Part shown: one piece after another, positions 5,176-11,735 of the stretch
How positions within the stretch are numbered: the stretch's first letter is position 1
Layout: each line of letters opens with the position of its first letter
From: Methylovorus menthalis
GTDB taxonomy: Bacteria > Pseudomonadota > Gammaproteobacteria > Burkholderiales > Methylophilaceae
DNA length: 64,000 nucleotides
NCBI RefSeq assembly: GCF_020523625.1
Contig: NZ_JAJAQH010000001.1
Coordinates: 74,930 to 138,929 of the forward strand
Reading direction: 5' to 3'
Program-made: the position numbers and the translations under genes
Notes under the pieces: generated by a model
Databases searched by the model: none
Told to the model about the DNA's origin: nothing
What the model saw: only the letters and a program-made list of their open reading frames with translations

Positions 5176-5637
5176 CTACTGATACGTTTTACCCTGGTAT
5201 TCGAGCCAGCCGGGCGTATGGCGTTGCTGCGGGTCATGGTGCGTCCAGTGCACCACGCCACCTTTGGCATTCCAGGCATATTCGCCAAAAAACGCCAGCT
5301 CGTCGCCAACGCCCAGTGCGGGAATACGCGGGGCGAGGTCAATATTATGTGCAATCAGCACGGTGATGCCATTTTCAAGGCGAACCAGTATGCGCTGATG
5401 CCGATTACCGTCATTGTCATCCTTGAGCACTTTGATCACCCGGCCACGCGCCTTGACCTGCACATGGCTAAGCCTGTGATCAAACGCCTGACGGATAACC
5501 GCATCACCATCCTGCCAAGTGGCGGGCCGCGCCAGCTCGACGGGCTGGGCAACAGGCGCTACTTCAGTCGCGGCGGAGGAAAAATGCCAAATGGTATACC
5601 CAGCGGCAATCGCCGCTGCCAGTATCAAGCGCTTCAT
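5176..5637 (-). CDS. DUF3465 family protein, secreted or membrane-anchored
   Basis: Protein of 153 residues with an N-terminal hydrophobic segment (about residues 3-22) that ends in FSSAATE, so it is exported or anchored. The remainder contains the core I recognise from the DUF3465 family: [33 protein letters not shown], [35 protein letters not shown], with a final [12 protein letters not shown]. The compact beta-rich core may be OB-like. Function is unknown. The start codon overlaps the end of trpD by 4 bases, so it is translationally coupled into the trp operon, between trpD and trpC. Why such a protein is in this operon is not evident. Confidence 0.85.
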
Positions 5638-7227: not shown

Positions 7228-8742
7228 TTATTCCTTCCCTTGAGCCAGTTGACCGGCATTGCTGTCCAGACCGGCGAGCACAATCTCGGCGGCGCGAATC
7301 ACGGCTCTTGCCTTGTTCTGCGTTTCCATCCATTCGTTCTCGGGCACCGAGTCAGCCACAATACCGGCACCGGCTTGCACATAAAGCGTCTTGTCCTTGA
7401 TCACGGCGGTCCGAATGGCAATCGCCAGATCCATATCGCCATTAAAGCCGAGATAACCAACAGCACCTGCATAAATGCCGCGCTTGGAAGGCTCCAGTTC
7501 GTCTATGATTTCCATGGCACGCACCTTGGGCGCTCCGCTCACCGTACCGGCAGGGAAGGTGGCCTTCAGAACATCAATCGCCTGCATGCCGGGTTTGAGT
7601 TTGCCCTCCACGTTGGACACGATATGCATGACATGCGAGTAGCGCTCAATCACCATGCTGTCTGTCACTTTGACCGAACCCGTGACTGCGACGCGGCCCA
7701 CATCGTTACGGCCGAGGTCCATCAGCTGCACATGCTCGGCACGCTCCTTGGGGTCCGCCAGCAGCTCTTCGGCCAGCGCTACGTCATGCTCGCGCGTCTT
7801 GCCACGAGGACGGGTGCCGGCAATTGGGCGGGCAGTGACCATATCGTTTTCCAAGCGCACCAGAATTTCAGGTGAAGCACCGACCACATGGTGGTCACCC
7901 ATATCGTAGTAAAACATGTAAGGCGATGGGTTCAGGCTGCGCAATGCGCGATAGAGCGACATGGGGGATGCAGCAAACGGTTGCGACAAGCGTTGCGCCA
8001 GCACCACCTGCATGATGTCGCCATCAAAGATATAGCGCTTGGCCTGCTCGACGGCTGCCTTGAAATTGGCTTCGCCAAACTCCGACACCGCTTCACTCGG
8101 CGCCATCGCAGGCGCTTGGGGAATGGCGACGGGCTGACGCAGCTGCGTCAGCAATTGCTGCAGGCGCTGATGCGCTGCCTCATAGGCGTTATCCGTCGCG
8201 GGGTCCGCATACACGATGAAATAAAGCTTGCCTGACAGGTTATCCACCACAGCCAGCTCTTCGGACACCATGAGCAGAATATCGGGGACACCCAGCGCAT
8301 CGGTCTTGGCATGCGCGTTGCGCGTGAGCCGCGGCTCGATATAACGCACGGTTTCATAGCCGAAATAACCAGCCAGGCCGCCGGTAAAGCGCGGCAAACC
8401 CTGATAAGGTGGTGTTTTGAAACGCGCCTGATACTGTTTGACGAAATCCAGCGGATTAATATCAGCGGCGGACTCAATCACGAGATCGTCCTGCAACACC
8501 TTGATATCACGATCATGAGCCACGATACGGGTACGGGCAGGCAAGCCTATGATGGAATACCGGCCAAAACGCTCACCACCCTGCACAGATTCCAGCAGAT
8601 AGGAGAACGGGCGATTAGCCAGCTTGAGGTAAAGAGAAAGTGGAGTATCGAGGTCGGCGAAGGTTTCGACGACCAGGGGAATACGGTTGTAGCCCTGGTC
8701 CGCCAGGGCCTTGAACTCGTGCTTAGTGATGGTATGTAACAT
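7228..8742 (-). CDS. trpE: Anthranilate synthase component I
   Basis: Chorismate-binding subunit that makes anthranilate with ammonia from TrpG; the committed and usually feedback-inhibited step. At 504 residues it is of normal length. The N-terminal part carries [17 protein letters not shown], which holds the LLES tryptophan-binding element. The C-terminal chorismate domain shows [52 protein letters not shown] and [11 protein letters not shown]. Upstream, a leader region of 78 bases follows a tiny Trp-rich ORF, so expression is probably controlled by attenuation. Confidence 0.96.
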
Positions 8743-8770
8743 AGTAATTCCAAGTCTTGTATGTGCGTCA

Positions 8771-8849
8771 GGCGCAGCTGTGCGCCCTCCAGATTCGTCC
8801 CAATGGACGTTCGTCAGAGTTCAGCGCCACCATCGCCAGCTGGGCTGGC
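8771..8849 (-). promoter_or_regulatory. Candidate trp attenuator region with three hairpins
   Basis: Reading the minus strand from the leader peptide to trpE, three perfect hairpins can be drawn: GCCAGC-CCA-GCTGGC (8835-8849, inside the leader ORF and covering its first Trp codon), CGTCC-ATTG-GGACG (8796-8809), and GGCGCA-CAGC-TGCGCC (8771-8786). The GGCGC over the last Trp/Arg codons (8823-8829 area) can pair with the GCGCC of the third hairpin instead, giving an alternative fold. The third hairpin is not followed by a U-tract, so it is not a classical intrinsic terminator. Regulation could act through Rho or on trpE translation. Structures were drawn by eye. Confidence 0.5.
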
Positions 8850-8871
8850 ATTTAAAGTCCTGGAAATTCAT
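8821..8871 (-). CDS. trpL: trp operon leader peptide (16 residues)
   Basis: An ATG at 8871 opens a 16-codon frame reading MNFQDFKCQPSWRWWR and ending in TGA at 8821. Three of its last five codons are Trp (TGG CGA TGG TGG CGC). AAGG lies 7 bases before the ATG and overlaps the end of gph, whose stop codon is only 4 bases upstream. The position, directly upstream of trpE with hairpins following, is that of an attenuation leader: ribosome stalling at the Trp codons would change the folding of the downstream RNA. Three TGG codons within five at this exact place are very unlikely by chance. I infer function; there is no protein homology to lean on at this size. Confidence 0.75.
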   Translation of the reverse strand: MNFQDFKCQPSWRWWR

Positions 8872-8875
8872 CTAT

Positions 8876-9562
8876 TTACCTTGGATCACACGTTAATAAA
8901 AAAGCCGCCTCTTGCAGACTGTCAATCACCGCATCAGCCCCCAGCATATCGGCAGGCTGCCCGCGATTATACCCATACGAAACCGCAATCGCCGCACATC
9001 CAGCGGCACGCGCCGCATCGACATCCGCCGAGGAGTCGCCTATCATCACCATCTGCGCTGGGCTTACGCCAAACATTTCGGCCATATGCAGCAAAGGCAG
9101 AGGATCCGGCTTTTTCCGCGGCAAGCTGTCTCCGGACAGCACCAGTGAAAAATACGGCAGCATGTCCATCGCTTGGAGCAGTGGCAGCGTAAAGCGTTCC
9201 GGTTTGTTGGTAATACAGGCCAGCTTGTAGCCGACCGCATGCAACTGCTTTACCCCTTCCATCGCGCCGGGGTAAGGCGCACTGCGCCGTGTCAACACTT
9301 CGGCATAGTGCTCAAAAAACAAGTCCTGCGCCTGCTCAAATGCCGCGGCATCAGGCTCCGCCTCCATCTCCCCCGTGAGCAGACGCTTGACCAGCCGCGC
9401 CGCGCCATTGCCCACATAGGTCATGACCAGCGCTTCTGGCAGGGTTGGGCGTCCCAGGGCGAGCAGCATGCGATTAGCCGCATCAGCAAGATCCGGGGCG
9501 GTATGCAGAAGCGTACCATCCAGATCCAGCGCCACGGCGCGCACCGGGATCGGAAAATTCAC
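8876..9562 (-). CDS. gph: Phosphoglycolate phosphatase (HAD family)
   Basis: HAD-superfamily hydrolase that removes 2-phosphoglycolate. The 228 residues begin NFPIPVRAVALDLDGTLLHTAPDLADAANR: motif I is DLDGTL (Asp nucleophile), motif II lies near ACITNKP, motif III/IV is KPDP plus MIGDSSADVDAARAAG. The frame is open up to 9736, but that would overlap rpe by 119 bases; a GTG at 9562 gives the family N-terminus and is preferred, though only a weak GGA precedes it. Placed between rpe and the trp genes, as in many betaproteobacteria. Confidence 0.9.
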   Translation of the reverse strand: MNFPIPVRAVALDLDGTLLHTAPDLADAANRMLLALGRPTLPEALVMTYVGNGAARLVKRLLTGEMEAEPDAAAFEQAQDLFFEHYAEVLTRRSAPYPGAMEGVKQLHAVGYKLACITNKPERFTLPLLQAMDMLPYFSLVLSGDSLPRKKPDPLPLLHMAEMFGVSPAQMVMIGDSSADVDAARAAGCAAIAVSYGYNRGQPADMLGADAVIDSLQEAAFLLTCDPR

Positions 9563-9617
9563 AACGGGGATTCCGCAGAGCACTCCATGTGCCACCGCTT
9601 GTGCGATGGCAGCAGGA

Positions 9618-10316
9618 TTACACCTTGGCCAGCTCGGCGCGCAGGTTGCCGAGGATGGTGTCGTAACGGTTAGGATCGGTATCCTTGCCAGCACCGAACA
9701 CGGCAGAACCCGCCACAAACGTATCGGCACCCGCACGGGCGATCTCGGCGATATTGGCCGTATTCACACCACCGTCGATTTCCAGCCAGATTTCACGGCC
9801 AGTCTTTTCGGTGTAGGCATCAATGCGGGCACGGGCCTGACGCAGCTTGTCCAGCGTGCCAGGAATAAACTTCTGACCGCCAAAGCCAGGGTTAACCGAC
9901 ATCAGCAGAATCATGTCGACCTTGTCCATGACGTAGTCGAGGTAATCCAGCGGAGTAGCTGGGTTGAATACCAGGCCGGATTTGCAGCCCAGCTCACGCA
10001 CCAGCGAGAGGCTGCGATCAATATGGTCGGAAGCTTCAGGGTGGAAGGTAATGATGTTGGCGCCAGCCTTGGCAAAGTCAGGGATGATGCGATCCACGGG
10101 CTTCACCATCAAATGCACATCAATGATGGCATCGGTCACTGGGCGGATGGCCTCACAGACCAATGGACCAATGGTCAGGTTGGGAACGTAGTGGTTATCC
10201 ATTACGTCAAAGTGAACGATATCGGCACCGGAAGTGATGACATCGCTGATTTCCTGGCCCAGCTTGGCAAAGTTGGCGGAAAGAATACTTGGGGCAATTC
10301 TGAATGGTTTGGCCAT
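9618..10316 (-). CDS. rpe: Ribulose-phosphate 3-epimerase
   Basis: Interconverts ribulose 5-phosphate and xylulose 5-phosphate. In a ribulose monophosphate methylotroph this also feeds regeneration of the formaldehyde acceptor. The 232-residue TIM barrel shows the metal and catalytic signatures [56 protein letters not shown] and EIDGGVN, which include the catalytic aspartate pair. It is the first gene of the leftward run; the 171 bases to hemA probably hold divergent promoters. Confidence 0.96.
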
Positions 10317-10487
10317 GGCTACGAATCAATCAGTTGAAAAACCCGCATTTTACCCGGATTTGTCACGTCAAGACAGCCCTTTAGCCCTGCCAGAGGTCAA
10401 CATTTCGCCCAACTGGCCGTTACTAGGGAAGATATCTATCTGACTGAAATTGTTGCTTATGCTGGCGCGATACTGGAAAATTACGAA

Positions 10488-11735
10488 ATGCATCTATTCA
10501 CCGTCGGTGTGAACCACACCACCGCCCCCATTGCGATCCGCGAGCACGTAGCCTTTCAGAGCGAAACCCTGGAAGAAGCCCTGCGCGATCTCAGCACGCA
10601 TGGCGTGCGCGAGGCGGCCATCCTGTCCACCTGCAATCGGACGGAGCTTTACTGCAATACCGACGACCCGCAAAAAGCCCTAGATTGGCTGGCAAAATAC
10701 CACCAGCTGCAAACCCACAATATCCAACCCTATATGTACACTCTGCCCAGCGAAGATGCCGTGAAGCACGCCTTCCGCGTGGCGGCAGGGCTGGATTCCA
10801 TGGTGCTGGGCGAAGCGCAGATTCTGGGGCAGATGAAGCAGGCGGTGAAAATCGCCGAACACGCAGGCACCCTTGGCACCCTGCTGCACAAGCTGTTCCA
10901 GCGCACCTTTGCCGTCGCCAAGGAAGTCCGCAGCACCACTGATATTGGCGCCAGCTCCATTTCCATGGCAGCCGCCTCAGTCAAGCTGGCGCAGCGCATT
11001 TTTGGCAATCTGCATGGCCTGCATGTACTGTTCATCGGCGCGGGTGAAATGATAGAACTCTGTGGCGAGCACTTCGCCACCCACAAGCCAGCCTCCATTA
11101 CCGTAGCGAACCGCACCATGGAGCGCGGCAGCGAACTGGCTGCCCGTATTGGCGGCCACGCCATGCTGCTGGGCGACATTCCGGACCGCCTGGCCGATTT
11201 TGATATCGTCGTCACCTCCACCGCCAGCCAGCTGCCAATTGTCGGCCTCGGCATGGTGGAGCGCGCCATCAAGACGCGCAAACACCGCCCCATGTTCATG
11301 GTGGACCTGGCCGTGCCGCGCGATATTGAAGCCGAAGCAGCCGAGCTGGATGACGTCTTCCTGTACACGGTGGATGACCTGGCGCAAGTCGTACAGGAAG
11401 GCCTGGTGAATCGTCAGGAAGCCGCACGTGAGGCCGAGAAGATTATTGCCCTGCGCGTAGACAATTTCATGCACTGGCTGAAAACCCGCGATGCTGTTCC
11501 CACCATACGGGCACTGCGCGATCAGGCCGAGCACTTCCGCCGCAGCGAGCTCGAAAAAGCGCAGAAGCTGATCGCCCGCGGCGAAGACCCGATTGCCGCC
11601 CTTGAAGCGCTAAGCACCGCGCTCACCAACAAACTTTTGCATGGCCCCAGCCACGCACTGAATCAAGCCCATGGCGACAACCGCGAACAACTGGAAAGCC
11701 TGTTGCGCCAACTCTACCAGCTCCACCACGATTAA
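10488..11735 (+). CDS. hemA: Glutamyl-tRNA reductase
   Basis: Reduces glutamyl-tRNA(Glu) to glutamate-1-semialdehyde, the entry step of C5-pathway tetrapyrrole synthesis, with NADPH. The 415 residues show the N-terminal [14 protein letters not shown], the catalytic cysteine in [13 protein letters not shown] (Cys49), [17 protein letters not shown], the NADP-binding segment [17 protein letters not shown] and a C-terminal helical dimerisation domain. It leads a four-gene rightward run with prfA, a DUF2127 gene and prmC, a common proteobacterial arrangement. A GGAA about 9 bases before the ATG may serve as ribosome binding site. Confidence 0.96.

Follow-up and report, generated by a model that had tools for sequence, protein, structure and literature searches.

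A short open reading frame rich in tryptophan codons precedes trpE in most of the Methylophilaceae loci examined here and probably acts as a ribosome-sensing leader that controls trpE at translation initiation, that is, by translational attenuation. Sequence comparison shows that the Trp-codon ORF is conserved and where it lies, and it reveals a co-evolving long-range complementarity that covers the Shine-Dalgarno (SD) sequence of trpE. Because the early codons of this conserved ORF can pair with the trpE ribosome-binding site (RBS), tryptophan probably acts on translation rather than by stopping transcription.

The window, the whole stretch of 64,000 nucleotides that was analysed, belongs to a methanol-using bacterium with a genome of 2.92 Mb in 10 contigs. 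Its trpE places the genome in the Methylophilaceae, and the closest named trpE loci are those of Methylotenera and Methylophilus. The gene order on the minus strand is rpe, gph, leader ORF, trpE, trpG, trpD, a DUF3465 gene, and trpC, with the identities of rpe, gph, trpE, trpG, trpD, and trpC backed by NCBIfam models. The DUF3465 gene (5176-5637, minus strand; PF11948, E 1.9e-48) thus sits between trpD and trpC within the trp run, and the N-terminal start of its product resembles a signal peptide by eye. The features around the leader are as follows.

7228 to 8742, minus strand: trpE, the putatively regulated gene (TIGR00564, 566 bits), with its ATG at 8742.
8821 to 8871, minus strand: the trp leader ORF, 16 codons, peptide MNFQDFKCQPSWRWWR followed by the stop, Trp at codons 12, 14, and 15.
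8876 to 9565, minus strand: gph (phosphoglycolate phosphatase), the upstream gene (NF009695), start uncertain, end at 8876.
8879 to 8882, minus strand: AAGG, a possible SD of the leader, upstream of its ATG and within the last gph codons.
9618 to 10316, minus strand: rpe (ribulose-phosphate 3-epimerase; TIGR01163).

The leader ORF, with the nucleotide sequence ATGAATTTCCAGGACTTTAAATGCCAGCCCAGCTGGCGATGGTGGCGCTGA, runs from an ATG at 8871 to a TGA ending at 8821. The first-pass annotation had described a 16-codon Trp ORF, 4 nt past gph and 78 nt ahead of trpE, with its own AAGG, and the coordinates confirm each of these points. The leader region is more stable than its dinucleotide shuffles (z −2.2; 4 of 200 shuffles equal or better), and positions 8000-10500 of the window have no match to any Rfam family, leader models included, up to an E value of 1. 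Across this genome, the leader motif has one exact match, the known leader itself, and six matches at one mismatch. A mechanical listing around trpA gives five short ORFs with two Trp codons, and the genome holds three His-run matches.

With a cut-off of E ≤ 1e-100, a family search matched trpE in 173 of the 187 genomes. Out of these 173 genomes we examined 130 loci, 30 as returned by the search and 100 that we chose from the matches listed, for a short ORF that lies within the last 200 nt before trpE and has two or more Trp residues near its C-terminus. Such an ORF was found in 116 of the 130 loci, compared with 13 of 127 control windows farther upstream. Correction by hand of this automatic set, in which L124, L136, and L178 were the wrong ORF and L207 was spurious, and in which L136 was reset, leaves a genuine Trp leader in 113 of the 130 loci. 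The conserved short ORF and Trp codons on which the first reading of this locus depended are therefore present in relatives, and an internal Trp leader within the rpe-gph-trp run is strongly supported. The motif WRWW or WR..WR is present in 98 of the 130 loci and in 2 of the 127 control windows. The C-terminus typically reads ...SWRWW or ...SWR.SWR; the N-terminus and the spacer to trpE are variable. An SWRWW or SWR.SWR end that is kept while the remainder drifts is what one would predict for a leader whose Trp codons, rather than its peptide, are important.

The 113 leaders have 12-26 codons, with two to four Trp codons within the last 13 (three or four in 74 leaders). The median spacer to trpE is 79 nt, and the upstream gene is usually close (median gap 19 nt, n=111). 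An SD-like triplet at −15 to −3 precedes 27 of the 113 leaders, as against 95 of the 113 trpE genes; given how few leaders have one, initiation on the leader may require the ribosomes of the upstream gene. The position of the first Trp codon peaks at codons 11-13 (75/113). We considered a fixed distance from AUG to Trp as a ruler for two ribosomes and do not claim it, since with one locus per genus the positions spread over codons 8-19.

The 17 loci outside this set are L091, L108, L124, L133, L163, L174, L175, L178, and L203-L211. By eye, L091, L124, L174, and L178 have Trp-containing leader-like ORFs, and L175 has a single Trp; L163 is cut by a contig end. The L108 leader looks degenerate by eye and is apparently decaying, with a Gly codon seemingly in place of a Trp codon. 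Inspection by eye found no Trp leader in L133, where it has apparently been lost, or in the nine loci L203-L211 from the small-genome genera g2 and g16. In L203 and L204 (g16), trpE as judged by eye directly follows an rpe-like 3′ end, and an inverted repeat is visible ahead of trpE. In L142 and L154 (genus g7), the leader is likewise seen by eye behind an rpe-like 3′ end without gph, which indicates that the leader travels with trpE and not with gph. The exact motif AGYTGGCGATGGTGG was rejected as a marker for such leaders: it occurs in 39 of 150 genomes of the order, and only 3 of its 36 located loci precede trpE, all in the family of the window; a further 15 matches without a locus fall outside the 36.

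The feature that points to translation is a predicted long-range pairing between codons 2-6 of the leader (segment A) and the trpE SD region (segment A′) about 110 nt downstream.

8855 to 8868, minus strand: segment A, complementary to the trpE RBS region; leader nt 4-17; own z −3.7 relative to dinucleotide shuffles (p 0.003).
8746 to 8758, minus strand: segment A′, the stretch upstream of trpE that contains the Shine-Dalgarno GGA (8749-8751).

In folding calculations on the naked RNA of the window, the SD pairs with leader nt 4-18 at a probability of 1.00. The sequence of the helix differs from genus to genus, and the complementarity stays. Thus A is TTCCTTAAAAAG and A′ CTTTTTAAGGAA in L173, CCCGAATCCTGA and TCAGGATTCGGG in L148, and ACCTCAAATTT and AAATTTGAGGT in L094. 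For the two species sister to that of the window, A AATTTCCAGG complements A′ CTTGGGAATT with two G-U pairs included, and A′ of the window is one G short of theirs, which leaves a bulge in the helix. Leaders were read side by side by eye, the spacers of about L139 to L147 lying outside that reading.

Exchange tests used 53 representatives more than 30% apart, with A limited to the codons before the Trp codons. Pairing of A with its own A′ averages −12.1 kcal/mol, compared with −7.2 kcal/mol for A′ of other loci, a difference reached in none of 100,000 permutations. With composition controlled by dinucleotide shuffles of A, the own z is −1.71 and the cross value −0.21 (again 0/100,000), and the own partner ranks in the top 5 of 53 for 28 loci. 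The same score matrix reduced to one locus per genus (20 genera) gives 0 of 200,000 permutations. Since A pairs less well with a foreign A′, the complementarity is not an accident of composition. Taken singly, 26 of the 53 loci reach p ≤ 0.05 against shuffles and 27 fail to do so. Windows from gph of the same genome fall behind at the 5% level in 22 loci and not in the other 31; with A held fixed, control 26-mers do so in 19 loci and not in 34. When about 250 nt were scanned for the best partner of the trpE RBS, it fell within −6 to +33 of the leader ATG in 34 of 53 loci, and at +34 to +43 in 7; for the remaining 12 it lay farther upstream, within the preceding gene. Of 28 strong helices, 26 have an A that ends no more than 18 nt from the first Trp codon, a nearness that is not independent evidence because A was defined to end at that codon. 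The trpE start is uncertain in L164, L188, and L198, so A′ may be misplaced there. Overall, the trpE SD is complementary to RNA that leader ribosomes would cover, and this combination of complementarity and position is the one expected of a translational attenuator.

Covariation was also scored within three clades, which were picked by eye from the listing together with their helices. In genus g17 (six loci), an 11-bp helix has 97.0% of its cells paired, with two-sided changes at 3 of 11 pairs; its covariation score is reached by 3 of 500 shuffles and its count of two-sided pairs by 91 of 500. The g13/g14 clade (six loci) has a 12-bp helix with 95.8% of cells paired and two-sided changes at 2 of 12 pairs, and its covariation is not above column shuffles (69 of 500 reach it). 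In the third clade (10 loci), the helix comprises 17 pairs and is 83.8% paired; no pair has changed on both sides, and column shuffles are not exceeded.

The first-pass annotation had left two mechanisms side by side, Rho-dependent control and control of trpE translation. The comparative evidence favours the latter, although the co-evolving helix is a different one from the hairpins after the ORF to which that annotation had pointed. Under Rho-dependent control, the leader ribosome would expose or hide a rut site, and A:A′ pairing would be secondary or would merely add polarity. The scarcity of intrinsic terminators described below is in keeping with such control, as is the polarity that is expected once trpE initiation is blocked. 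It does not, however, predict that leader codons complement the trpE SD in a species-specific manner, and we regard it as unlikely.

To describe how the leader could act on the RBS, we calculated by folding the cost of freeing trpE from −16 to its ATG, given here as mean values. In naked RNA this cost is 12.1 kcal/mol with the native A, as against 7.5 kcal/mol when codons 2 to Trp are shuffled (Wilcoxon 1e-8). A ribosome at the leader stop brings it to 11.0 kcal/mol, and one placed on the first Trp codon to 8.9 kcal/mol. When the leader start is occupied as well as that codon, the cost drops to 4.2 kcal/mol, a value that is partly built in because the masked leader start includes A. A stall at Trp alone makes opening more than 1 kcal/mol cheaper than a ribosome at the stop does in 28 of 53 loci. 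For the leader of the window, a model with a single ribosome was rejected: a ribosome at the first Trp codon leaves the SD paired at 0.99-1.00, and the cost is 7.2 kcal/mol compared with 7.3 for naked RNA. A second ribosome at the leader start brings the cost down to 3.2, with two SD bases still 0.7-0.8 paired elsewhere. Because a waiting ribosome alone is insufficient in this leader, a queue of ribosomes, or events during transcription, must be assumed.

These calculations bear also on plain translational coupling, in which any translation of the leader would open A:A′ and activate trpE, with the Trp codons merely tuning the rate. Coupling of this kind would account for A beginning within the footprint of the initiating ribosome in 26 of the 28 strong helices. 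It would also account for the 47 of 53 loci in which joint occupation of the first Trp codon and the leader start makes opening more than 1 kcal/mol cheaper than a ribosome at the stop does. Against it, every one of the 113 leaders has between two and four Trp codons near its end, two being the number by which leaders were recognized, which suggests that charged tRNA-Trp is sensed, and we judge plain coupling to be quite improbable.

Translational attenuation, our preferred reading, would proceed in the cell as we infer here. By default, when tryptophan is replete, leader ribosomes would clear the Trp codons and depart, A (codons 2-6) would pair with A′, and trpE would be shut. Upon starvation, a ribosome would wait at the Trp codons and a second would be held behind it at the leader start; together the two would cover A, leaving A′ free so that trpE could be translated. 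The rest of trpEGDC would presumably follow trpE by polarity or coupling.

Three local hairpins had also been described, and all are present.

8835 to 8849, minus strand: hairpin GCCAGC/GCTGGC inside the leader ORF, overlapping Trp codon 12; its stem is preserved in both other species of the genus.
8796 to 8809, minus strand: spacer hairpin CGTCC/GGACG, no U-tract; stem kept and loop variable in the three species of the genus.
8771 to 8786, minus strand: spacer hairpin GGCGCA/TGCGCC, no U-tract; stem kept in the three species of the genus.

The claimed lack of a U-tract after the hairpins was confirmed by eye, and a terminator scan lists no site in the window spacer. Across the family, 8 of the 113 spacers have a terminator-like site by a simple scan, an excess over the 3.8 expected from shuffles; seven are in genus g17 and one is elsewhere. 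That simple scan misses hairpins with long loops, including one visible by eye in L051. Spacer structure is on average slightly more stable than shuffles (mean z −1.0; 15 of 51 below −1.6), which is too weak for naming a conserved spacer hairpin, and some loci have, by eye, a local GGTGGC/GCCACC hairpin. We also considered a conserved helix of the E. coli type between the Trp codons and the spacer; it is not clearly supported, with a mean z of −0.47 against spacer shuffles and 8 of 53 loci at p ≤ 0.05, while the own-versus-cross value was reached in 633 of 100,000 permutations.

Classical transcription attenuation of the E. coli trp kind would use the same Trp-codon sensor, with the leader selecting either an antiterminator or an intrinsic terminator located in the spacer. 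The spacer hairpins, the eight terminator-like spacers, and the U-tracts in the spacers of other Betaproteobacteria (L051, L069) would all suit it. With no terminator-like site in the window spacer or in 105 of the 113 family spacers, and with pairing between Trp codons and spacer not clearly conserved, we think it very unlikely for these leaders. That A:A′ is a chance pairing of pyrimidines with purines, such as any A might form with an SD, would fit the half or so of single loci that are individually non-significant, and is scarcely credible when own beats cross in every permutation and the cross pairs have the same SD and pyrimidine content.

Outside the family, we compared 33 named loci from L009-L081 that were taken to have a Trp-codon leader, a set that omits L070 (runs of N) and includes L053, which probably has no leader. 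Their own z is −0.76, compared with 0.08 when permuted (0/100,000). The clearest helices are in L012 (Gallionellaceae), L023 (Azonexus), L020 (Hydrogenophilales), L028, L038, and L042 (three beta- or Burkholderiales MAGs), and L054 (a gammaproteobacterial MAG). Loci of Microbulbifer and Pseudomonas show no A:A′ helix. The loci of Massilia, Collimonas, Glaciimonas, and Pseudoduganella (L051, L052, L065, L069), genera that we take to be Oxalobacteraceae, have spacer U-tracts instead, as judged by eye. In L009, a betaproteobacterial MAG whose trpE is 76% identical to that of the window, a terminator-like site with a U-tract, GCGGCGCGCTTTGCGCCGT then TTTTT, follows an SWRW-type segment by eye, which is the classical design. 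It is conceivable, and we put it forward tentatively, that many Betaproteobacteria use translational trp attenuation, with early leader codons that mask the trpE SD and a two-ribosome queue that opens it, that Massilia-like lineages have a U-tract terminator with the leader in the same position, and that related lineages have exchanged the output of the sensor between transcription and translation.

Textbooks present the trp attenuator as the model of transcription attenuation; in the E. coli-type leader (trpL), the ribosome reads a short ORF that contains tandem Trp codons and lies immediately ahead of trpE. The leader in the window is likewise a short ORF with clustered Trp codons just before trpE. 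Unlike trpL, it lacks a terminator-like site and an Rfam match, is internal to an operon, behind gph, and appears to have the trpE SD as its output. In the translational attenuators of erm and cat genes, a drug-stalled ribosome on the leader ORF frees a sequestered downstream SD. On the proposed reading a stalled leader ribosome would similarly free the trpE SD here, although the signal would presumably be a shortage of tRNA-Trp charging rather than a drug, and the present analysis describes no second, mutually exclusive set of hairpins. The LEU element predicted before leuA in Actinobacteria, for which a leucine codon run that pairs with the SD and a pseudoknot are described (PMC1262725), is the nearest published design among the literature searched, and is a prediction as well. 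The regulatory run itself pairs in the LEU element, whereas in our leaders it is mainly the codons before the Trp codons that pair with the SD. The ilvB-II motif of Corynebacterium likewise has a conserved uORF rich in end-product amino acids before a biosynthetic gene, for which its authors propose transcription attenuation (PMC10272879). Other authors have predicted translational attenuators, according to PMC2965389. No report of a translational trp leader is among the literature matches listed, a coverage that leaves out the comparative proteobacterial attenuator papers of 2004-2008. The components are known, from erm-type attenuators, the predicted LEU element, and the E. coli trp leader, and their combination was not found in the literature searched.

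Attenuator searches that demand a terminator miss leaders of this kind, and the 53 divergent leaders form a natural series on the choice between terminator and SD. Translational attenuation would explain how trpE is controlled inside the rpe-gph-trp run. A trp leader that is family-wide, mostly without a recognisable terminator, and co-evolving with the trpE RBS suggests that translation, too, can be the output of this sensor.
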